A stretch of 64,000 bases of DNA from Urbifossiella limnaea (GCF_007747215.1 NZ_CP036273.1:2030322-2094321), one strand, 5' to 3'; counted from the first letter of the stretch, positions 4,339-14,806 are shown. The notes: generated by a model not told the origin, from the letters alone. Made by a program: numbers and translations.

Positions 4339-7300
4339 TTACCGGCTCACCACCGCCGCCGACGGCGGCCGGCGTGGGAACGTGATCGGCTGTTGCGCGT
4401 CGTCGCGCTGCCCGGCCGCCCGCAGCAACACCGGCAACCGGCCCGACACGTACTCCACCAACTCGTCGCCGCCTAGCGCCCCGTCGGTGTCGGCGTCGGC
4501 GCGGCGGAAGCCGGGGCCGAGCGCGTCCAGCAGCGCCGCGGTGAACACGCCGCCGCCGACGCGCGGGTGCTCGTAGGAGAGCTGCCCCTGGTCGCAACTG
4601 CACACCACGAACGGGCCGTGCCCGTCCGGCACGCAGCGGCGCACGAGGTTCGCCGCCGCCGCCTCCCCCGAGTGGCAGGCGTCCAGGAGTACCACCTGTC
4701 GGCAGTTCACCTTCGCCAGCGCGGCGAACAGCTCCTCCGCGGCCAGCCCCGTCTTCTCGGCAGCGGCCCGCGCGTAGTCCGGGCCGCACAGCATGAACCG
4801 GCCGGCCCCCGTCACCACGCCGCGCGCCCGCTCACTGCCGCCGCCGGCCTTCGCGTCGGCGCCGAGCAGGTCGCCGTGGCCGGCGAAGAACACGACCATC
4901 AGGTCGTCCGGCTTCGCCGTCGCCGCGGCCTTGTCGATGGCGGCGAGCAGCTTCGCGCGGGTGGCGTCGGCGTCGAGGCGGAGGTCGATGCGGGCCTGCT
5001 TGAAGCAGCCGCCCTCGTAGCGGCGGAAGGCGTCGGCGATGCCGCGAGCGTCCTTGTCGGCGAAGATCAAGTCGCCGAGCGCCCGCGCCCCGCCGGCCGC
5101 CTTGCGGTTCCCGGAGTAGTCGTTGATGCCGACCGACACGGCCACGAGGTCCGTCGGCGGTGCGGGCCGCGGGTTCCGCACCACGCGCGAGTCTTCGGAG
5201 CGCCCGCCGAGCGCGTTGTACGTCACCACCGCGAGCCGGTTTTCGCCCGCCCGCAGCGCCGCCAGCGGCACGGTCACCGTCTCGTCGAACACGTCTTTGC
5301 CGCCGGCCGGCCACGACTTGTAGCGGTGGTCGTTCAGCCACAACTCGACGCGCTCCGGCACCAGGTCCACGTTCGACCCGCGCCGCCGCACCACGACGCC
5401 GGCCGTGACGCCCTGCGGCCCGGCCTCCGTCTCCGTCACGCCGATCCGCACCGGGGCCGGCTCGACCTGTGTAAACGACCGCGGCACCGGGTTCTCGCCG
5501 AGGGCGAGTTTCAGCGCCCCGGCCAGGTCGCGGGCGCCGAGCAGTTTCTCGATCACGTCCGGCCGGTGGAACTGCTTCTCGAACTGTTGCAGCGGGTAGA
5601 ACTCCGGCCGCACGCCGGGCGTGGGGGCGTTGACGTGCCAGCCGACGAGCCGGTCGCCGTGGGCGCTGGCGGTGTGGTAGTACGAGCCGTGCCACGACCA
5701 CGCCACCCACTCGGTGAGGCGGCCGCTGTCGTGGTAGCCGGCGAACCACTTCCACACGGGGCGCTGCCGCACCGTCGTGAGCGTCTCGCGCCGCGGCTGC
5801 CCCGGCTGTTGCAGCCCCAGGAAAAGTTCCGTGCCGGACACCGGGCTCGCCAGCGCCTTCATCGCATCGTCGGCGATGCCGGCTTCCTTCCGCCCCACGC
5901 GGCGCTCGTACAGCGGCCGCCCGCCGACGGCCAGGAAGTCGAGCCGGTCGCCGACGCGCAACCCGGCCTCCCACGCGGGCGAACCCGTGTCCACGGCGGT
6001 GACTGCCGGAACGCCTTCTCGTACCGCCACGACCGCACCGAGGTTGTTCCGCGAACCCCAGTCGGTGAGGCTCCACGCGGCGACGGTGTGGTCCGCCCCG
6101 CCGGTGACGAACCACGACCCGTCCGCGGCCGCGACCACCGACAGTACCTCGCCGGCGTGGCCGGTGTACAGTCGCGCGCGGACGGCTCCTTCGGGCCGCA
6201 GTTCGAACAGCGACGCGCCGTAGTAGTGGCCGACGATCACGCGAGTCGGCTTGCCGTCGCGCGCCGGTAGGAACGTGTAACACCTCGAGGCCTGGTCGCG
6301 GTTCCAGTCGAGCGTCAGGGGGTGCTTCACGTCCGGCATTCCGGGCCGAGACAGGACTGCGTGCCACAGGAAGCTGTCGACCGTGTCGGGCTCGACACGC
6401 CAGCCGTCGGCGCCGGTCAGGACACCGACCCAGTTCGTGTCGGCCCGGGTGGGGGCCAGGCGGTCGAGGTCGAACTTGGTCCAGTCGCCGGAGCCGCGGG
6501 CGTTGGGGTCGGTCGGTCGCGGCGTGCGGGCGGTTTGCACGCCGAGCACCTTGCCGTCAGCCGAAAGGTTCACGGCCCAGTTCCGCCGCCCGGCCCCGCG
6601 GACTGTGACCGCCGGTCCGCCGATCGGGGTGAACGTCACCTCGTCGGCGTCGCCGCCGGCGATGGCGAGTCGGCCGTCGGGGTGGAAGGCGAGCGCCTCG
6701 GCCGGGCCGGTGTACGGCAGGATGGCCGGCTTCGCGTCGCCGTTCGGCGGCGGGTCGTAGAGGTGGATGTCGTCGCGCCCCTCGAGGTAGAACCGCGGCT
6801 TCCCCTCCGCCGCGGGTAGCACCTCGGCTACGCCGACGGCCAGCCTGCTGGTTTTCGCGTCCCACGCGAGGCTGCGTGGCAGGCGGGCGGCCGGCAACTG
6901 ACGACGATGCTTCTGGGCGCCGTCGGCCGAGACGATCAGGACCTCGGGCATCCCCTCGGTCGCGGCGGCTAGCCACTTCCCGTCGGCGCTCCACGCCGCC
7001 CGGTAGACCGGCTGCCGCTGCCCGTCGTTGACGACGAACAGTTGCCTCGTCGTCGCTTTGCCGTCGGCCGTTTCGGAGAGCGGCCCCGCGAGGTCGGCGG
7101 CCCGCACCTCGCCGCTCTGGGCGACGGATTCGAGCGTGGCCGCGTCGGTGAAGCGGACCGCGCGTGGGATGTTCAGCTCGGTGAGGGTATCGTTAAGGAG
7201 TTTGCGTGGGTCGTGCCGGCCGGCCCACAGCGGCCGCGGCGACGGCGGGGCGTCCGGCTCGTGCTCCTTCAGCAGCGTCGGCTCCCACACCCACAGGCTG

Positions 7301-7797
7301 CCGTCGGCGGTGCCGAAGCCGACGCGCTTCCCGTCCGGCGCGAAGGCCACGGCCGTGACCGCGTTAAAGTTGTCGACGCCCGGCCGCGACTTCGGCCACG
7401 TCAGCCCGACCAGGTCGCCGGTCTCGCGGTCGATGACGGCGACGGTACTCGGCCGCATCCCCAGGCCGCCGACGGCGACCAGGTTGCCGTCCGGCGACAC
7501 GGCGATTGCCTTGATGCCGCCGCGCTGCTCGCGCCACGCCCGCCACCGCAGCACGCGGCCTTGGGCCGGGTCGGTGTCGAGCCCCTTCGCCGTCACCGGC
7601 CAGACGCGGACGACCTTGTCGTCGCCGGCGGCGAACAGGAACTTCCCCGCCTTGTCGAAGACGAGGGCGTCGCAGGTGCCGACGCGGCCGCCGGCCTCGA
7701 CGACGACCTCGGGCTCGTCGCGGCTGCGGCGGTCGGCCTGCTGGGCGGCCGCCGGTACTGCGAGGACCAGAGTGACGATCGCGGCGGCGCGAAACAT
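4339..7797 (-). CDS. Secreted WD40–PDZ-like–caspase (peptidase C14) protein
   Basis: This 1152-aa protein has a signal peptide (MFRAAAIVTLVLAVPAAAQ). Residues about 30–600 carry WD40-type repeats (for example GKFLFAAGDDKVVRVW and a later TGGADHTVAAWSL). Around 600–660 is a PDZ-like segment (GSPAWEAGLRVGDRL). The C-terminal about 300 residues are a caspase-fold peptidase. The first strand reads VAVSVGINDY, the catalytic His lies in FFAGHGD (His974) and the catalytic Cys in LLDACHSG (Cys1041), so both residues are intact. WD40–caspase fusions are common in planctomycetes and are thought to act as propeller-regulated proteases; substrates are unknown. The start at 7797 faces the kinase start at 7871 with only 73 bp between, a likely divergent promoter. 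Confidence in the domain call is high; the biological role is inferred. Confidence 0.92.
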   Translation of the reverse strand: MFRAAAIVTLVLAVPAAAQQADRRSRDEPEVVVEAGGRVGTCDALVFDKAGKFLFAAGDDKVVRVWPVTAKGLDTDPAQGRVLRWRAWREQRGGIKAIAVSPDGNLVAVGGLGMRPSTVAVIDRETGDLVGLTWPKSRPGVDNFNAVTAVAFAPDGKRVGFGTADGSLWVWEPTLLKEHEPDAPPSPRPLWAGRHDPRKLLNDTLTELNIPRAVRFTDAATLESVAQSGEVRAADLAGPLSETADGKATTRQLFVVNDGQRQPVYRAAWSADGKWLAAATEGMPEVLIVSADGAQKHRRQLPAARLPRSLAWDAKTSRLAVGVAEVLPAAEGKPRFYLEGRDDIHLYDPPPNGDAKPAILPYTGPAEALAFHPDGRLAIAGGDADEVTFTPIGGPAVTVRGAGRRNWAVNLSADGKVLGVQTARTPRPTDPNARGSGDWTKFDLDRLAPTRADTNWVGVLTGADGWRVEPDTVDSFLWHAVLSRPGMPDVKHPLTLDWNRDQASRCYTFLPARDGKPTRVIVGHYYGASLFELRPEGAVRARLYTGHAGEVLSVVAAADGSWFVTGGADHTVAAWSLTDWGSRNNLGAVVAVREGVPAVTAVDTGSPAWEAGLRVGDRLDFLAVGGRPLYERRVGRKEAGIADDAMKALASPVSGTELFLGLQQPGQPRRETLTTVRQRPVWKWFAGYHDSGRLTEWVAWSWHGSYYHTASAHGDRLVGWHVNAPTPGVRPEFYPLQQFEKQFHRPDVIEKLLGARDLAGALKLALGENPVPRSFTQVEPAPVRIGVTETEAGPQGVTAGVVVRRRGSNVDLVPERVELWLNDHRYKSWPAGGKDVFDETVTVPLAALRAGENRLAVVTYNALGGRSEDSRVVRNPRPAPPTDLVAVSVGINDYSGNRKAAGGARALGDLIFADKDARGIADAFRRYEGGCFKQARIDLRLDADATRAKLLAAIDKAAATAKPDDLMVVFFAGHGDLLGADAKAGGGSERARGVVTGAGRFMLCGPDYARAAAEKTGLAAEELFAALAKVNCRQVVLLDACHSGEAAAANLVRRCVPDGHGPFVVCSCDQGQLSYEHPRVGGGVFTAALLDALGPGFRRADADTDGALGGDELVEYVSGRLPVLLRAAGQRDDAQQPITFPRRPPSAAVVSR

Positions 7798-7870: not shown

Positions 7871-9679
7871 ATGAACCAGCCCGACCAGACGCAGGTCAAC
7901 ACCGGCGACCGCCCCCCGGTCGACGCCTCCGGCACGAACGCCGAAGCGACCCGCACCGCCGGCCAGGTCGGCCCGCCGCCGCCGGTGCCTGCGACCGAAG
8001 CCGACCGCACCGACGCCGTGGTGTCGGTCGCCCAGCAGTACGAGTTGGTGCGCCAGCTCGGCCGCGGCACGTTCGGCGAGGTGTGGCTGGCCCGCAAGAA
8101 CCCGAGCGGCATCGAGAAGGCTGTGAAGGTGCTGCACCAGCCGGCCGACCAGGACACGGCCAAGCGCGAGCTGAAGTCGCTGGAACTCATCAAGAACCTC
8201 CGCCACCCGTACCTGCTGGCCACCGAGGACTTCTGGGTCGGCGGGAACAAGCTGTACATCGTCACCGAACTGGCCGACGGCACGCTCCGCGGCCGGATGA
8301 AGGAGTGCATCGCCGAAGGGAGGCCGGGCATCCCGCTGGACGAGTTGTTGGTCTACCTCCACGAGTCGGCCGAGGGGCTCGACTACCTTCACCAGAAGCA
8401 GATTACCCACCGCGACGTGAAGCCGGACAACATCCTCGTGGTGAACCGGCACGCCAAGGTCGCCGACTTCGGACTGGTGCGGCACCAGGCGGCGGCGGTC
8501 GAGGCGGTCAGCTTCGCGGGCACGCCGGCGTTCATGGCCCCGGAAATCTGGCTCGGCGAGGGCGGCCCGGCCAGCGACCAGTACGCCCTCGCGGTCAGCT
8601 ACGTCGAGCTGCGGCAGGGGAAGACGCCGTTCGCGTTCGCCACCGACGGCGTGATGGCGGCCCACGTCGAGGGGAAGTTCGGCTTCGACGACCTGATCCC
8701 GGAGGCCGAGCGGGCGGTGCTGCGGAAGGCGATGGCCCGCAAGCCCGAGGACCGCTACCCGACGTGCGCCGCGTTCGCCGCCGCGCTCGCCGATTCGGAA
8801 GGGCGCGCGGTCGTGCGGTCCGACACGCCCGCGGGCAAGCCGCAGCCGAAGTGGCTGATTCCCGCCGCGGCAGCGGCCGTCGTGCTGCTGGGAGTGGGTG
8901 TCTACTTCGGATTCTTCGCGGAGAAGGGCGGCTCACGCGCCGGCGAGACGGCCACGCCCGCCGGGGCCGTCGCGGAGCCCGGGACGGAGCTGGTGACGTT
9001 CCTGGACGGGCGGCAAGCGCCGCAGTGGGTGACGCTGACTCGCGGCCCGGAGACGATGCGCTTCCGGCTGATCACGCCGACGGGCGGGCCGGGCACGCCG
9101 ATGCCGTTCTACCTCGCGGCGGCGAAGGTGTGGAACCAACTCCACCAGGAGGCGTGCAAGGCCGGTGGCGTGCCCGACCCGGACCGCGAGCAGCCCGGCG
9201 GCCCGGCGGCGCCGGTCGTCAACGTGACCGCGACCCAGGCCGCCGCCGTCGCCGCGGCGATGGGCGGCCGGCTGCCGACGCCGGACGAGTGGGACCACGC
9301 CGCCGGCTTCCACGACCGCGGCGGGCTGGCCGGCCCCCTGCGGGTCGGCGGCGCGGCGCGCGTCGGGCTGAAGGAGCCCGCCCCCGCCACCGGTCCCGAC
9401 GCCGACCGGTCCGCGAACGCGCTTGGCCTCCTCGACATGGGCGGCAACGGCCGCGAGTGGACCGCCGCCGTCCTGCCCGGCCGCGGACAGCCGCCGCTGC
9501 CCGTCGACGGCGCCGCGTTCGATCCGGAGGCGCGGGTGGTACTGCGCGGCCGGGCGTACTTCCTCCGCACGCCGCTGACGTTCGCCGACATGGAACTGGA
9601 GCGCGACGAGCCGCAGACGCAGTTCGCCCGCGAGAAGAGTGCGTACACCGGCTACCGCGTCGTGCTGCCGGTGCCGTGA
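7871..9679 (+). CDS. Membrane Ser/Thr protein kinase fused to FGE-sulfatase-like domain
   Basis: This 602-aa protein has a Hanks-type kinase domain at about residues 57–320. The Gly loop is LGRGTFGEV (64–69 region), followed by the AVKVL Lys, HRDVKPDN (His180–Asp182) and DFG at Asp199, all intact, so an active kinase is expected. A single membrane segment follows from about Trp328 (WLIPAAAAAVVLLGVGVYFG). The exported half (about 370–602) resembles formylglycine-generating enzyme/SUMF1 folds (GGRLPTPDEWDHAA, LGLLDMGGNGREWT, YTGYRVVLP). I do not see the usual active-site cysteine pair, so it is more likely a ligand-sensing FGE-like domain than an enzyme. It starts 73 bp from the divergent caspase gene and ends 68 bp before the VWA–UDG–ART gene, which suggests one signalling unit. 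Confidence 0.92.
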   Translation: MNQPDQTQVNTGDRPPVDASGTNAEATRTAGQVGPPPPVPATEADRTDAVVSVAQQYELVRQLGRGTFGEVWLARKNPSGIEKAVKVLHQPADQDTAKRELKSLELIKNLRHPYLLATEDFWVGGNKLYIVTELADGTLRGRMKECIAEGRPGIPLDELLVYLHESAEGLDYLHQKQITHRDVKPDNILVVNRHAKVADFGLVRHQAAAVEAVSFAGTPAFMAPEIWLGEGGPASDQYALAVSYVELRQGKTPFAFATDGVMAAHVEGKFGFDDLIPEAERAVLRKAMARKPEDRYPTCAAFAAALADSEGRAVVRSDTPAGKPQPKWLIPAAAAAVVLLGVGVYFGFFAEKGGSRAGETATPAGAVAEPGTELVTFLDGRQAPQWVTLTRGPETMRFRLITPTGGPGTPMPFYLAAAKVWNQLHQEACKAGGVPDPDREQPGGPAAPVVNVTATQAAAVAAAMGGRLPTPDEWDHAAGFHDRGGLAGPLRVGGAARVGLKEPAPATGPDADRSANALGLLDMGGNGREWTAAVLPGRGQPPLPVDGAAFDPEARVVLRGRAYFLRTPLTFADMELERDEPQTQFAREKSAYTGYRVVLPVP

Positions 9680-9747: not shown

Positions 9748-12700
9748 ATGACCACCATCCTGCAACCACACTTCGCCCTCAGCACGCATCTCGCGCCCGG
9801 CAAGACGCCCACCGCCGCCGACGTGCTCCTCACGTTCCGCGTCGAGCGCACGGGCGCTCTCGCCGGTCCCGGCCCGCGGCTGCCGCTGAACCTCGGCCTC
9901 GTCCTCGACCGGTCCGGCTCCATGGCCGGCAAGCCGCTCGACCAGGCCGTCGCCGCCGCCGGGATACTCCTCGACCAACTCGACGGGCGCGACACCCTCT
10001 CCGTCGTCGCGTTCGACCACACCGTCGACACGGTCGTGCCCCAGGAGCCGGTGGCCGACCGGGCTGCCGTGATGAAGCGGCTGAGGAAGGTCCGCCCCGG
10101 CGGCTCCACGAACCTGTTCGACGGGTGGGACGCCGGCTGCGGCCAGGTCGCCTGTTGCCGCGCCGACCATGCCGTCAACCGCGTACTGCTCCTCACCGAC
10201 GGCGCCGCGAACCACGGCGTCACCGACCCGGCGAAGGTTGCCGGACACGCGGCATGGTGGGCCGCCCGCGGCGTCTCCACCACCACGCTCGGCTTCGGCC
10301 GCGACTTCGAGGAAGACCTGCTGCTGAAGATGGCCGAGGCGTCGGGCGGCAACTTCTACTACATCGAGACGCCGGAGGACGCCTGCCAGGTGTTCCAGAT
10401 CGAGGGCGAGACGCTCACGTCCGTCGCCGTTCGGAACCTCGTACTCACGCTGACGCCCGCCGCCGGCAGCGGCGTCGTCGTGAAAGACGTGTTGAACCGC
10501 TACGCCACCCGGGAGACGCCCGGCGGCCTGGTGGTGAGCGCCGGCGACGTGTACGCCGCCGAGGACAAGATTCTCGGCGTGGCAATCGAGGTTCCGCCGC
10601 AGAGCCGTGGCCGGACGGCGGTTCCGCTCGTCGAGGTGAGCTACACCTGCGACCTGATTTCGCACGGCGGCCGAACGGTCCGCGCGGCGGGATCGTTCAC
10701 GGTCGCCGTGCCGGTGAGCACGGCCCCCGCGGTCCGCGACGTGGACGCGGTGCGACAGGCGGCCCGGCTCCGCGTCGCGGCGGCGAAAGAGGACGCGGTT
10801 CGCCACTACGACGCACTCCACACGAAGGACGCGGAGGCGGTGACGCGCGCCGCCGCGGACGGGCTCCGGCAGCAGCAGCTAGACGAGGAGTTCGACCTGG
10901 CCGAGGAGGCGGCGCAGCTCGACTACTACGCCGACCGCTTCGCCGCCGGCGGGCTCAGCGGCCCGGACCGCAAGACGCTCCGCGACCAGGCCTACCAGGG
11001 CCGCACCCGCGGCCGCGACGACCTCGCCGCCCGCGGCAGCGGCGGCGGCTCGGCGCACTCGCTTCCCACCACGGCCGAGGTCGGCAACGGCGTCGAGGTG
11101 CGCTGCGTGCGCGACGGCGGCAAGCTCCGCGTCGAGCCGGTCAGTGCGGGGTTCGAGCGCGAGTTCCGCGTCCTGTTCCCGCGCGCGGTTCGCGAGCCGG
11201 GCGTCCACTACGTCGTGGACGGGCTCGAGCTCTCTGCGAACGGCACGTTCTACAAGCCGTCCGGCGCGATCAAGCGACTGACAAAGCCGACCGCGGTCCA
11301 CAGCGCGGACCCGTCCGACCCGCTGAAGTTGACGGAACTGTTCGCCGGCGGCGGGGAGCCGTGGCTGCCGGTGCTCAAGCCGGTGATCGAGGTGCAGCCG
11401 CGGGCCGGCGAGTTCATCGGACCGAACCGCGACGCGGCGGTCGTGCCGATGCGCGAACTCACGTTCCAGGCGCTGAAGCCGAACCCGCCGGAGAAGTGGA
11501 AGGTGGTGGTGTTCGGGCAGAACCCGTACCCGCGGGCCGAGTCGGCCACCGGCATTGCCATGTTCGACAACACGTTCGCCGACTGGGCCGACAGCAAGTT
11601 CGGCAAGGTCACGTCGATCCGCTGCGTCATCAAGGCCGCGGTGATGTCGAAGCACGGGCTACCGAAGTCCACCGGCATCGCCGACATCCGCAAGCTGCTG
11701 GCGAAGGAGAAGGCCGTTCAGCCGCCCGAATGGTTTCAGGCGATGCTGACGCAGGGCGTGCTGCTGCTCAATGCGGCGCTCACCGCCAGCACCGAGAAGG
11801 GCGCCCCGGCCGACCCGCACGCGGCCTTCTGGCGGCCGGTCGTCGAGAAGCTCGTCGAGGAGATTCTGAAGGCGAAGCAGGCCAGCGCCGAGCCCGCGGA
11901 CAGGGGCGTCGTGTTCGGCTGGTGGGGCGCCCACGCCCGCAACCTTCGCTCGCTGGTCGAACGGCTTCAGCAGAAGTACCCGGGCGTGAGGGTGCGGCAC
12001 GTCGATCACTGCAACCCGGCCGCGCAGGGCGACGTCTTCTGCGACGGCGACCACTTCGGGAAGATCAACGCGGCCCTGCGCGGCGTCGGCGCCGGCGAGA
12101 TCGACTGGCTGCCGAGTGTGGGCTGGAACGCGGGCGCGAGCGACGCCGAGCGGATGGGTGCGTTCATCACGCAGACGCAGGAACTGCACAAGCTCTACCT
12201 GGAGCGGTTGCAAGAGGTCGCGGCCGAACTGGCGGCGCCGCTGCCGGCCATTGTCGGCGTGCTGGCGTCGCCACTGTTGGCGTTCCCCGACGCGGTCGGG
12301 CCGCTGGTCCCCGCGGTGCCGGGGCTCGACTTCTACCTGAAGCGCGCCCACCAGTACGGCCAACTCCAGGCCGCGCGGCCGGGCACCGACCTGAGCGCGG
12401 ACGAGATCGCCGCCGTGTACCTGTACACCACCGAGTCGTCGTTCCACCGCCGGCTCAACGCCGTGCTGCGCGACCCGGACCGCGACCACGCCAGGCCGTA
12501 CTTCGGCTACCTGCGGCTGCTGCTGACGGCGCTGCCGAGGCTGGCCGGGTACACCGGCAGCCTGTGGCGCGGCGTCGCGGCCGACCTGCGGCGGCAGTAC
12601 CCGAAGGGCGGCACGGTGACGTGGTGGGGCGTGTCGTCGTGTACGGCCAAGCGGTCGGTGGCGACGAGCTTCATGGGCGGCACCGGCAGGCGCACGCTGT

Positions 12701-12876
12701 TCGAGATCACACCGGCGCAGGCGGTCGGCATCCGCCGCTACTCGGCGTTCACCGGCGAGGACGAGTACGTGCTGTTGCCCGGGGCGCGGCTGGCCGTGAC
12801 GGACGTGACGTCGGAGCCCGGAGGGCTCGCGACGATCCGGCTGCGCGAGGAAGCGGGCGGGCGCGAGGTGTCGTGA
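9748..12876 (+). CDS. VWA – uracil-DNA-glycosylase-like – ADP-ribosyltransferase fusion protein
   Basis: This 1042-aa protein starts at ATG 9748; the frame is open far upstream but that part overlaps the kinase gene. Residues about 45–215 form a von Willebrand A domain with an intact MIDAS motif (DRSGSM, Asp54). About 440–510 is a small unnamed region. About 580–800 matches the family-1 uracil-DNA glycosylase fold: GQNPYP (590–595, usual GQDPYH), QGVLLLNAALT, FGWWGAHARN, and HCNPAA from His754 where HPSP is usual. The catalytic Asp is replaced by Asn, as in MUG/TDG enzymes. About 860–1035 is an arginine-type ADP-ribosyltransferase with the full R-S-E set: LWRGV (Arg941), GVSSCT (Ser963–964), GEDEYVLLP (Glu1004, Glu1006). 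The protein may recognise DNA through the UDG fold and modify a target by ADP-ribosylation; that is inference. No signal peptide is seen, so it is probably cytoplasmic. Its stop is 5 bp from a convergent gene. Confidence 0.88.
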   Translation: MTTILQPHFALSTHLAPGKTPTAADVLLTFRVERTGALAGPGPRLPLNLGLVLDRSGSMAGKPLDQAVAAAGILLDQLDGRDTLSVVAFDHTVDTVVPQEPVADRAAVMKRLRKVRPGGSTNLFDGWDAGCGQVACCRADHAVNRVLLLTDGAANHGVTDPAKVAGHAAWWAARGVSTTTLGFGRDFEEDLLLKMAEASGGNFYYIETPEDACQVFQIEGETLTSVAVRNLVLTLTPAAGSGVVVKDVLNRYATRETPGGLVVSAGDVYAAEDKILGVAIEVPPQSRGRTAVPLVEVSYTCDLISHGGRTVRAAGSFTVAVPVSTAPAVRDVDAVRQAARLRVAAAKEDAVRHYDALHTKDAEAVTRAAADGLRQQQLDEEFDLAEEAAQLDYYADRFAAGGLSGPDRKTLRDQAYQGRTRGRDDLAARGSGGGSAHSLPTTAEVGNGVEVRCVRDGGKLRVEPVSAGFEREFRVLFPRAVREPGVHYVVDGLELSANGTFYKPSGAIKRLTKPTAVHSADPSDPLKLTELFAGGGEPWLPVLKPVIEVQPRAGEFIGPNRDAAVVPMRELTFQALKPNPPEKWKVVVFGQNPYPRAESATGIAMFDNTFADWADSKFGKVTSIRCVIKAAVMSKHGLPKSTGIADIRKLLAKEKAVQPPEWFQAMLTQGVLLLNAALTASTEKGAPADPHAAFWRPVVEKLVEEILKAKQASAEPADRGVVFGWWGAHARNLRSLVERLQQKYPGVRVRHVDHCNPAAQGDVFCDGDHFGKINAALRGVGAGEIDWLPSVGWNAGASDAERMGAFITQTQELHKLYLERLQEVAAELAAPLPAIVGVLASPLLAFPDAVGPLVPAVPGLDFYLKRAHQYGQLQAARPGTDLSADEIAAVYLYTTESSFHRRLNAVLRDPDRDHARPYFGYLRLLLTALPRLAGYTGSLWRGVAADLRRQYPKGGTVTWWGVSSCTAKRSVATSFMGGTGRRTLFEITPAQAVGIRRYSAFTGEDEYVLLPGARLAVTDVTSEPGGLATIRLREEAGGREVS

Positions 12877-12881
12877 CAGGC

Positions 12882-14705
12882 TCACGGCACGAGGCGGCGG
12901 TGCCGGGCGGCTCGGTCGCGGTCGCCGCCGCGCTCCAGCAGGTCGACCAGTTCCGACCGCAGGCGCGGGTTCATGCTCCCGATCGACGCGGCGGTTTCGA
13001 ACAGCCGGAGTGCCTCGTCACGGCGGCCGCGGGCCAGCTCGCAGCGGGCCAGGTAGCTCCAGTCGGCGGACGTGCGCCGGATGCGCGTCAGCTCCCGGAA
13101 GTGGTCGGCGGCGGCGGCGTAGTCCCCGCGGCGGTAGGCGTCGTCGCCCAGGAGGAACAACGCGTCGGTGCGAGGCTCGGGGTCGAGTGCGGCGTCCTTC
13201 AGCGCCGCCTCGGCGTAGGCCCGGGCGTCGGGGAGGCCGAGTCGGAACCCCGTGACCGCCAGCGACGCCGCGACCTCCGAGTCGCGGGCGCCGGCGTCCC
13301 AGGCCTCGGCGAGCAGGTCACGGCCGCGGCGGGTCAGGTCGCGGGCCGCCGGGCCGATTTCGGTGTGAGCCCCGCCCTTCGTGTACGCGATGCCGAGGGC
13401 GCGCTTGCGGGCCGACTCGCCGAACCGAGACAGGTCGTGGAACGGCTCCAGCACCTCGCGGGCGCTCCCGCGCGGCGGCGGCGGGGGTGCGGCGTCCGTG
13501 TGGATCCCGACGCGGTGGTGACTGAACGCGACGTGCGGGATGTCCGTCCTCCCGGTCGGCATGTGGCAGTGGACGCAGCCGTTCTCGGGGTCGGCGGCGC
13601 GGCGGGCCGCGGGTGGGGACTTGCAGGCGGCTTCCGTGTGGCACGTCAGGCACACGCCGCGGAAGTGCGCCGCGCGCCCGGCCGCGTCCGGGAAGCCGTG
13701 CGGGTTGTGGCACGTCGCGCACGTCAGCGTGCCCGAGCGCTGGTAGCACTTGCTCTGGTGCATCTGCTCGACGTGGCCGGTGACCGTCATCCCGCGGTCG
13801 GGGTCGACGAGGCTGAAGACGACGTGGAAGTCTTCGAGCGGCAGCCCGGGCCGGTAGTCGGCGATGGTGCGGCCGGGGGGCGAGACGAACGTGTCGCCGG
13901 CCAGGTGGCACTGCTGGCAGACGGCCTCGGCGAGCGCCCGCGGCAGCCGGCGGGGGTTCACCACGGTGAGGTCGCCGGGGCCGTCGCGGGCCGGGTGCTC
14001 GCCGGGCGTGTCCTGCCAGTGGCTGACGTGAAGCTCCCCCGGCCCGTGACACCGCTCGCACCCGATCGCCGCCTCGACGACCCGGTACTTGTGGGTACTT
14101 CTGTCAAGCCGCTCGACGCGGCCCATGTGGCAGTAGACGCACAGCGGGCCGATCGGCCGCTCGAACCCGCGGTGGACGGGCTTGTCGTACCCCGGCGACA
14201 TGCCCCACCCCTGGCGGGACGCGTACCACGTCACCGGCGACTCGGCGAGGAACCCGTCGGCGTCGCAGGCGAACGTCTGGGCGTGGCGGCCGGAGCCGAG
14301 GGCGAAAGCCACCGGCAGGTCGGTGAGGACCGCGTCGGCGCGGGCCGGGTCGAGGAGGAACTCGCGGTGCCGGGGCGTGCCGTCGACTCGCCGTACCTCG
14401 AACCGGCGGCCGGAAGCCGCGTGCTCGAAGGTGCCGTCGGGCGCCCCGGGCGCGGCGGCCGGTGCCGCCGACCGGCTCATGCCGGTCTTTAGGTACGAGG
14501 CATGGTCCTTGTCGTGGCAGCCGACGCAGACGGCGGAGCCGACGTAGGCGACGCCGGGCCGAGTGTTGAGGTATGGGCTCGCGGCGGTCTCCGGCGCGGC
14601 GGGCTCGACCACCGGCCGTGGCCGAAGCCAAAGCCACCACAAGCCCGCGGCGACGACCGCGATCGCGGCGACGACTCCAGCAACCCGTACGAGCGAGGGG
14701 GGCAT
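12882..14705 (-). CDS. Seven-heme c-type cytochrome with C-terminal TPR-like repeats
   Basis: This 607-aa protein starts at ATG 14705; the longer 14777 start would run through the terminator. The N-terminal anchor (about residues 5–27, VAGVVAAIAVVAAGLWWLWL) suggests a membrane-attached periplasmic protein. Seven CxxCH motifs follow: CVGCH, CVYCH, CERCH, CQQCH, CATCH, CLTCH and CVHCH, the last in CVHCHMPTGRTDIPHVAFSHH with possible distal His ligands. The spacing resembles cytochrome c554-type multiheme proteins. The last about 150 residues are helical TPR-like units (FLLGDDAYRRGDYAAAADHF). Such proteins carry electrons in the periplasm; the partner is not encoded nearby. It is convergent with the VWA–UDG–ART gene. 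Confidence 0.9.
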   Translation of the reverse strand: MPPSLVRVAGVVAAIAVVAAGLWWLWLRPRPVVEPAAPETAASPYLNTRPGVAYVGSAVCVGCHDKDHASYLKTGMSRSAAPAAAPGAPDGTFEHAASGRRFEVRRVDGTPRHREFLLDPARADAVLTDLPVAFALGSGRHAQTFACDADGFLAESPVTWYASRQGWGMSPGYDKPVHRGFERPIGPLCVYCHMGRVERLDRSTHKYRVVEAAIGCERCHGPGELHVSHWQDTPGEHPARDGPGDLTVVNPRRLPRALAEAVCQQCHLAGDTFVSPPGRTIADYRPGLPLEDFHVVFSLVDPDRGMTVTGHVEQMHQSKCYQRSGTLTCATCHNPHGFPDAAGRAAHFRGVCLTCHTEAACKSPPAARRAADPENGCVHCHMPTGRTDIPHVAFSHHRVGIHTDAAPPPPPRGSAREVLEPFHDLSRFGESARKRALGIAYTKGGAHTEIGPAARDLTRRGRDLLAEAWDAGARDSEVAASLAVTGFRLGLPDARAYAEAALKDAALDPEPRTDALFLLGDDAYRRGDYAAAADHFRELTRIRRTSADWSYLARCELARGRRDEALRLFETAASIGSMNPRLRSELVDLLERGGDRDRAARHRRLVP

Positions 14706-14735
14706 GGGAGTTAGGATAGCCGCCGCGGGGGTAAC

Positions 14736-14759
14736 AAAAAACCCCCGCGGGCGCGGGGG
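14736..14759 (-). terminator. Intrinsic terminator (minus strand)
   Basis: On the minus strand an 8-bp stem CCCCCGCG/CGCGGGGG with a 2-nt loop is followed directly by six T. It lies just downstream of the tRNA-like fragment at 14760–14806 and upstream of the cytochrome start. Confidence 0.75.
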
Positions 14760-14806
14760 TGAGGAGTCGCTTCGCACGGATTCGACTCGGGGGTCAGGGT
14801 TTTGCG
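14760..14806 (-). other. Degenerate tRNA-Cys-like 3' fragment
   Basis: Read on the minus strand, the segment resembles a tRNA 3' half. A GGT-TCGCAAA-ACC anticodon-like hairpin puts GCA at the anticodon positions, and a TCGAATCC T-loop-like stretch follows, then the terminator. The T-stem no longer pairs and no 5' half is found upstream. It closely resembles the better-preserved fragment at 22747–22794, which is also followed by a terminator. I read it as a decayed tRNA-Cys relic or an old attachment site. Confidence 0.4.

Follow-up and report, generated by a model that had tools for sequence, protein, structure and literature searches.

ADP-ribosylation that is guided by a DNA sensor is well known in eukaryotes, and in bacteria it is known from a few conflict modules, DarTG and similar ones. 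In PARP1/2, a DNA-binding sensor (zinc fingers/WGR) is fused to an ADP-ribose writer of the H-Y-E type, and PARG or macrodomain erasers act as partners. In DarT/DarG, an ADP-ribosyltransferase (ART) writer with a link to nucleic acid is paired with a macrodomain. The arginine ARTs of the R-S-E type, such as Vis, Tre1, HopU1 and ART2.2, are secreted or found at the cell surface. On the side of the uracil-DNA glycosylases (UDG), the family-1 enzymes (UNG) are recognized by a motif A, GQDPY, which holds the catalytic Asp, and by a motif B, HPSPLS, which holds an intercalating Leu. One member of the superfamily, UdgX, has been diverted from repair and binds uracil-DNA covalently; it carries GEQPG and a KRRIH loop (PMC10359453).

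We describe here proteins that join a UDG-like domain to an R-S-E ART in one chain (UDG-ART), accompanied either by a macrodomain or by a VWA domain and a module that we term X. Pfam, NCBIfam and PADLOC name neither combination, and searches of the openly accessible literature turned up no paper on a UDG-ART fusion. The parts are known, and their combination is without description in the family libraries and the literature searched. The protein at the centre of this work is encoded in a window, meaning the whole stretch of 64,000 nucleotides from Urbifossiella limnaea that was analysed, and its features are the following:

7871-9679, plus strand: upstream neighbour, Ser/Thr kinase with a C-terminal FGE-sulfatase (C-type-lectin-fold) domain, 68 bases from its stop to the ATG of the next gene
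9748-12876, plus strand: coding sequence of the VWA-X-UDG-ART protein, 1042 aa, ATG at 9748, stop at 12876; full-length homologues L018/L098 and L028/L099 at 57% identity
9892-10380, plus strand: VWA domain, aa 49-211 (Pfam PF00092, 2.8e-14), with the DxSxS metal-site motif DRSGS (aa 54-58) at 9907-9921
11092-11280, plus strand: module X, about 63 aa, no Pfam name; C-terminal also in WGR/beta-propeller proteins and a reverse transcriptase of other genomes
11326-12117, plus strand: UDG-like domain, aa 527-790 (NCBIfam ung models to 1e-19; PDB phmmer 4e-16; profile search 8e-15)
11515-11532, plus strand: UDG motif A, GQNPYP, aa 590-595, with Asn592 for the catalytic Asp, invariant in 80/80 orthologues
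11761-11784, plus strand: LLLNAALT, in which Asn675 aligns with the uracil-binding Asn of UNG
12007-12027, plus strand: UDG motif B region, HCNPAAQ, in which His754 aligns with the His of UNG HPSPLS; H.NPAA in 80/80
12238-12873, plus strand: R-S-E ART domain with an N-terminal helical lobe, aa 831-1042 (PF01129, 1.3e-9; model against ART2.2/Tre1, Z 17.5)
12568-12570, plus strand: ART Arg941 (LWRG), 80/80
12634-12639, plus strand: ART Ser963-Ser964 (WGVSSCT), 80/80
12757-12765, plus strand: ART ExE motif, E1004-D1005-E1006, E.E in 79/80

The gene and its start can be considered real, since two independent homologues (L018 and L028) begin at the equivalent ATG region, their N-termini coinciding with the ATG at 9748, and align through the stop. 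From the N- to the C-terminus, the chain is made of the VWA domain followed by a helical tail, of module X (about aa 449-511), of the UDG-like domain and of the ART. A sequence-only reading of this DNA had proposed that a VWA, a UDG-like and an R-S-E ART domain lie in one chain, and this is confirmed by Pfam, NCBIfam, phmmer and the fold match of the ART. The architecture that it took for three-part has, however, a fourth conserved module, X, between VWA and UDG. Neither is this order unique to the genome, a uniqueness that the sequence-only reading had named among its refuting conditions: two other lineages have the whole of it, their proteins being 57% identical over about 1030 residues, and such full-length homologues rule out chance or a frame artefact. 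The UDG assignment of the window protein is based on sequence, and that of the ART on sequence and fold (Z 17.5).

When genome contigs were scanned, 291 matches to the pattern and 198 confirmed relatives came out, so that at least 198 exist; the 80 loci that were fetched are 61-67% identical over roughly the last 500 residues. Nearly all of these loci are from Actinobacteria (Streptomyces, Nonomuraea, Micromonospora, Catellatospora, Nocardia and others), in which the typical form has about 530-600 residues and lacks the VWA domain.

The ART of the window protein scores 38.1 bits with PF01129, for a cut-off of 22.3 (E 1.3e-9). An AlphaFold2 model of the UDG-ART half, built from 60 aligned family members, reaches a pLDDT of mostly 80-93 over this domain, which matches known ARTs with Z from 12.8 to 17.5 (rat ART2.2 and bacterial Tre1 at 17.5, HopU1 at 16.2, Vis at 13.0). 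All the catalytic residues of an R-S-E ART had been read from the sequence at the outset, and they are indeed in place (R941, S963/S964 and E1004-D-E1006); LWRG and WGVSSCT are found in all 80 orthologues and ExE in 79 of them. There is no PARP-type H-Y-E catalytic domain, and the match to PF01129 and Vis/Tre1 sets the domain apart from DarT-type ARTs. The ExE motif predicts that arginine would be the acceptor of ADP-ribose. The fold and the R, S, ExE set are thus shared with Vis, Tre1, HopU1 and ART2.2; what differs from these secreted or cell-surface enzymes is the fusion to a UDG domain, either with VWA-X or beside a macrodomain.

The UDG domain goes uncalled in a Pfam search of the window protein, and PF03167 is reached merely at 0.04-0.13 in its homologues. 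Significant sequence homology to the uracil-DNA glycosylase superfamily is nevertheless present across the domain, with NCBIfam ung-type/uracil-DNA-glycosylase models (to 1e-19), with the solved structures in a phmmer search (4e-16 to UDG 3tr7 and 1e-11 to 5x3g) and in a family profile search (8e-15). The UDG part of the AlphaFold2 model is of low confidence (pLDDT about 30-75), and two structure searches gave only ARTs, and no UDG, among the 50 fold matches listed. In the alignment of the domain with 5x3g (FGQDPYPRPESAIGYAF / FGQNPYPRAESATGIAM), the motif A stretch is close (GQDPYPRPESA in 5x3g and GQNPYPRAESA here), the context PYPR.ESA.G being common to both. We take 5x3g to be the Bradyrhizobium enzyme BdiUNG, a broad-specificity UDG. 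The broad-specificity BdiUNG class is mentioned in PMC8307549.

Of the uracil pocket of UNG, the Gln, Tyr, Asn and His stay (Gln591, Tyr594, Asn675 and His754 in the window protein), while the catalytic Asp, the stacking Phe and the intercalating Leu are gone. In all 80 orthologues, GQNPYP stands in place of the family-1 motif A, H.NPAA in place of motif B, with the His retained and an Ala instead of the Leu, the Asn of LLxN is kept, and a Met occupies the site of the stacking Phe. The Asp-to-Asn change that had been noticed in the window alone is therefore a fixed trait of the family, GQNPYP being universal among these orthologues, and one that was fixed early. A kept pocket with a lost Asp, Phe and Leu is the pattern that would be expected where recognition is retained and excision abandoned. 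Since none of the 80 orthologues varies in the pocket residues and none has the catalytic Asp, the best-supported reading is a UDG domain that directs the ART to a nucleic-acid base. This was one half of the initial proposal; the other half was an anti-phage or regulatory effector, and the searches described below gave no support to an anti-phage one.

The same residues can also be read as those of a working, SMUG-like glycosylase that would excise uracil or a damaged pyrimidine, the ART then modifying the abasic product, the DNA or the bound repair proteins. This would agree with the invariance of the pocket Asn and His, and with the presence, among the closest solved kin, of 5x3g, presumably of broad specificity. 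Furthermore, an Asn in motif A is compatible with activity: SMUG (GMNPG/HPSPRN) has one, as does Mug/TDG (GINPG), and both are active (PMC10359453). The family, however, retains a Tyr where SMUG and TDG have a Gly, which argues for a UNG-like pocket, in which the Asp matters; a Met replaces the stacking Phe in 80/80; and a diverged paralogue drops pocket residues and retains its ART. A true glycosylase activity of the domain is possible by analogy, and we consider this account as a whole rather improbable.

The paralogue in question (L113:1953-3971, plus strand) lies in the myxobacterial genome of L028. It has GQSPYP, an Asp replaces its uracil-pocket Asn, and its R-S-E set is intact. Because the pocket Asn is lost there and the R-S-E set retained, the predicted ART activity would be the most strictly kept part of UDG-ART. 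The degenerate pocket of this copy and the loss of the catalytic Asp in all members are also what one would see if the UDG domain were a mere scaffold without base recognition, in a general arginine mono-ADP-ribosyltransferase controlled by its VWA or macrodomain partners. But a scaffold would need none of the Gln, Tyr, Asn and His that are invariant in the 80 orthologues, and we hold this last account to be very unlikely.

Compared with UNG and the BdiUNG-type 5x3g, the UDG-ART domain is thus alike in its sequence homology and in its pocket Asn and His, and unlike in the Asn for Asp, the Met at the stacking Phe, the Ala for the intercalating Leu and the ART fusion. The U. limnaea genome also has three other UDG-superfamily genes, of which one is a canonical UNG (GQDPYP/HPSPLS), so that ordinary uracil repair is independent of the VWA-X-UDG-ART protein. 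With UdgX, UDG-ART shares the diversion from repair of a UDG-superfamily member, but neither the GEQPG nor the KRRIH loop of UdgX is found in it. A planctomycete UDG (L087:1507-2421, minus strand), with GQDPYLQVEQATG and HPNAAP, has the catalytic Asp and no ART, and resembles the 5x3g/UDG-ART type; it may be kin to the form from which the UDG domain descends.

The N-terminal half distinguishes the window protein from the actinobacterial forms. Both the VWA profile and the DxSxS metal-site motif are present, and the part made of the VWA domain and the helical tail matches VWA proteins that stand alone and are about 420-490 residues long. The N-terminus, inspected by eye, has no apparent secretion signal, and the adhesion role first attributed to the domain finds no echo in these matches. 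The VWA-X-UDG-ART order was also found in two MAGs, L018 (delta-proteobacterial) and L028 (Myxococcaceae), and in a maximum-likelihood tree the three proteins form a clade with a support of 99/96, the window row being flagged as a long branch. Another planctomycete UDG-ART (L114), which has no VWA and is cut by the contig end, falls outside of this clade.

As for module X, Pfam gave no match to it in any of the host proteins scanned. WGR-beta-propeller proteins of Nonomuraea and Micromonospora carry X at their C-terminus, as do a reverse transcriptase of the planctomycete G065 and, in the L028 genome, a beta-propeller protein; the hosts are L110:5107-6519 (minus), L112:2797-4218 (minus), L111:8353-9702 (plus) and L115:2440-4140 (minus). 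Across one actinobacterial order, sampled with 250 genomes, X is present in 19 of the 25 genomes with UDG-ART and in 70 of the 225 without, a co-occurrence above expectation (Fisher p 2.5e-5, ignoring genome size and kinship) that we treat as a lead only.

In Actinobacteria, the partner of UDG-ART is a macrodomain. A macrodomain gene (Pfam Macro, 1e-10 to 1e-12, for instance 8e-12) adjoins UDG-ART in 78 of the 80 loci: 59 are divergent, with a median of 260 bases from the macrodomain start to the UDG-domain start, 7 are on the same strand, just upstream of UDG-ART, and 12 are fused in frame. The two loci without it are the VWA-fused L018 and L028. When all the ORFs around the 80 loci were clustered, the macrodomain was the sole strongly recurrent neighbour, the other true neighbour families recurring in at most 7 loci each. 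Single-chain Macro-UDG-ART fusions were seen in L061, L043, L060, L062, L069, L074, L075, L077, L078, L079, L080, L082 and L123:5161-7566; these proteins of Streptomyces and its kin are annotated merely as 'ADP-ribosyltransferase domain-containing protein', and one is a single 801-aa protein in RefSeq. Fusion and adjacency together make it nearly certain that the macrodomain and UDG-ART act in a shared pathway. The partner was compared with the known S. coelicolor hydrolase SCO6735, and this identity was rejected: the only PDB match is DR_2288 (0.0034), and the partner appears to be a macrodomain of a different type.

Macrodomains usually do not cleave arginine-ADP-ribose, which is cleaved by the ARH/DraG family. 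The pairing of an ExE arginine ART with a macrodomain is for this reason a poor fit, and either the ART modifies something other than arginine, or the macrodomain serves to read the mark or works on a different product. Neither the window nor the U. limnaea genome contains a macrodomain gene; this genome has four ADP-ribosyl-hydrolase (DraG-type) genes, elsewhere from the locus.

A writer adjoining or fused to a macrodomain brings DarTG to mind, and UDG-ART could be a toxin-antitoxin or anti-phage module of that kind, in which a toxic UDG-ART effector would be triggered by foreign or damaged DNA and held by the macrodomain as antitoxin, the VWA form being otherwise controlled. Its distribution is indeed patchy, with about 25 of the 250 genomes of the actinobacterial order, 1 of 149 in a phylum sample (the genome at the centre of that sample) and 2 of 392 Planctomycetota, as would be expected of an accessory trait that spreads horizontally. 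Copies also occur on four actinomycete records of a plasmid collection, two of them chromosome-sized, and a kinase-FGE gene and a WD40-caspase gene adjoin in the window. Split or fragmentary copies, in the actinobacterial genomes G631, G726, G671 and G691, suggest recent loss. However, no PADLOC model matches UDG-ART, the kinase matches being generic kinases, so that it is not a catalogued defence system; the viral contigs and phage records searched contain only plain UDGs and no UDG-ART, which led us to reject a phage or viral origin; and no mobile or defence neighbour is conserved other than the macrodomain gene, the only recurrent one in Actinobacteria. This gene is mostly divergent and not co-transcribed, it is absent near the VWA-clade loci, and ExE predicts arginine, not a base, as target. 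UDG-ART and DarT/DarG have in common the writer-macrodomain pair, which is seen in 78 of the 80 loci and not in the window, and the presumed nucleic-acid link, here through the UDG domain; they differ in the R-S-ExE type of the ART and in the usually divergent or N-terminally fused macrodomain. We regard a DarTG-like role as unlikely, to the same degree as the glycosylase one.

Around the gene itself, the kinase-FGE gene is a possible operon partner. The gene directly upstream of the planctomycete L114 UDG-ART also has an FGE-sulfatase domain, a weak link that is made of two cases in a phylum where FGE genes are common. No variable or template repeat was found around the upstream FGE domain, and the idea that a diversity-generating retroelement acts on it was discarded. 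Two further genes lie on the minus strand: 4339-7797, which diverges from the kinase-FGE gene and encodes a WD40-PDZ-caspase (Peptidase_C14) protein, and 12882-14777, which converges on the VWA-X-UDG-ART gene and encodes a cytochrome-like multihaem protein containing TPR repeats and CXXCH pairs.

We propose, with a confidence that is evenly balanced, that UDG-ART is a protein for nucleic-acid-guided (base-guided) ADP-ribosylation, with the UDG domain as reader, the ART as writer and, in Actinobacteria, the macrodomain as eraser or reader. The UDG domain would dock on uracil, a related base or an abasic site, in DNA or RNA, with an excision that would be weak at most, and this docking would place the R-S-E ART, at the C-terminus, close to what it modifies, probably arginines either of proteins bound to the same nucleic acid or of UDG-ART itself. 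The adjoining or fused macrodomain would bind or remove the ADP-ribose, and so reverse or restrain the signal. In the clade of the window protein, VWA and X are fused in place of the macrodomain, and they would probably tether or gate the enzyme through metal-dependent partner binding. The biological role may be that of lesion or damage signalling, or that of a stress or defence effector.

A broader and more tentative view, which we find doubtful but worth stating, is that of a bacterial counterpart of PARP signalling made from unrelated parts, with a UDG-derived base sensor, an arginine-type ART and a dedicated macrodomain eraser, in a lesion- or base-directed system that would be patchy in Actinobacteria and would have a VWA-X regulator in Planctomycetes and Myxococcota. 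The likeness to PARP1/2 and its erasers is one of working only, through the DNA-binding sensor fused to a writer and the macrodomain partner; the sensor here is a UDG and not zinc fingers/WGR, the catalytic set is R-S-E and not H-Y-E, and no family membership is claimed.

According to the authors of the SCO6735 study (PMC5087735), the main enzymes that ADP-ribosylate proteins in Streptomyces had still to be discovered, and UDG-ART is a candidate for being one of them. The VWA form has the same UDG-ART core, under what would be a different control. If the proposed reading is true, UDG-ART and its macrodomain would give bacteria a base-specific ADP-ribosylation signal, one that is directly testable since UDG-ART is found in cultured Streptomyces, Micromonospora and Nonomuraea.
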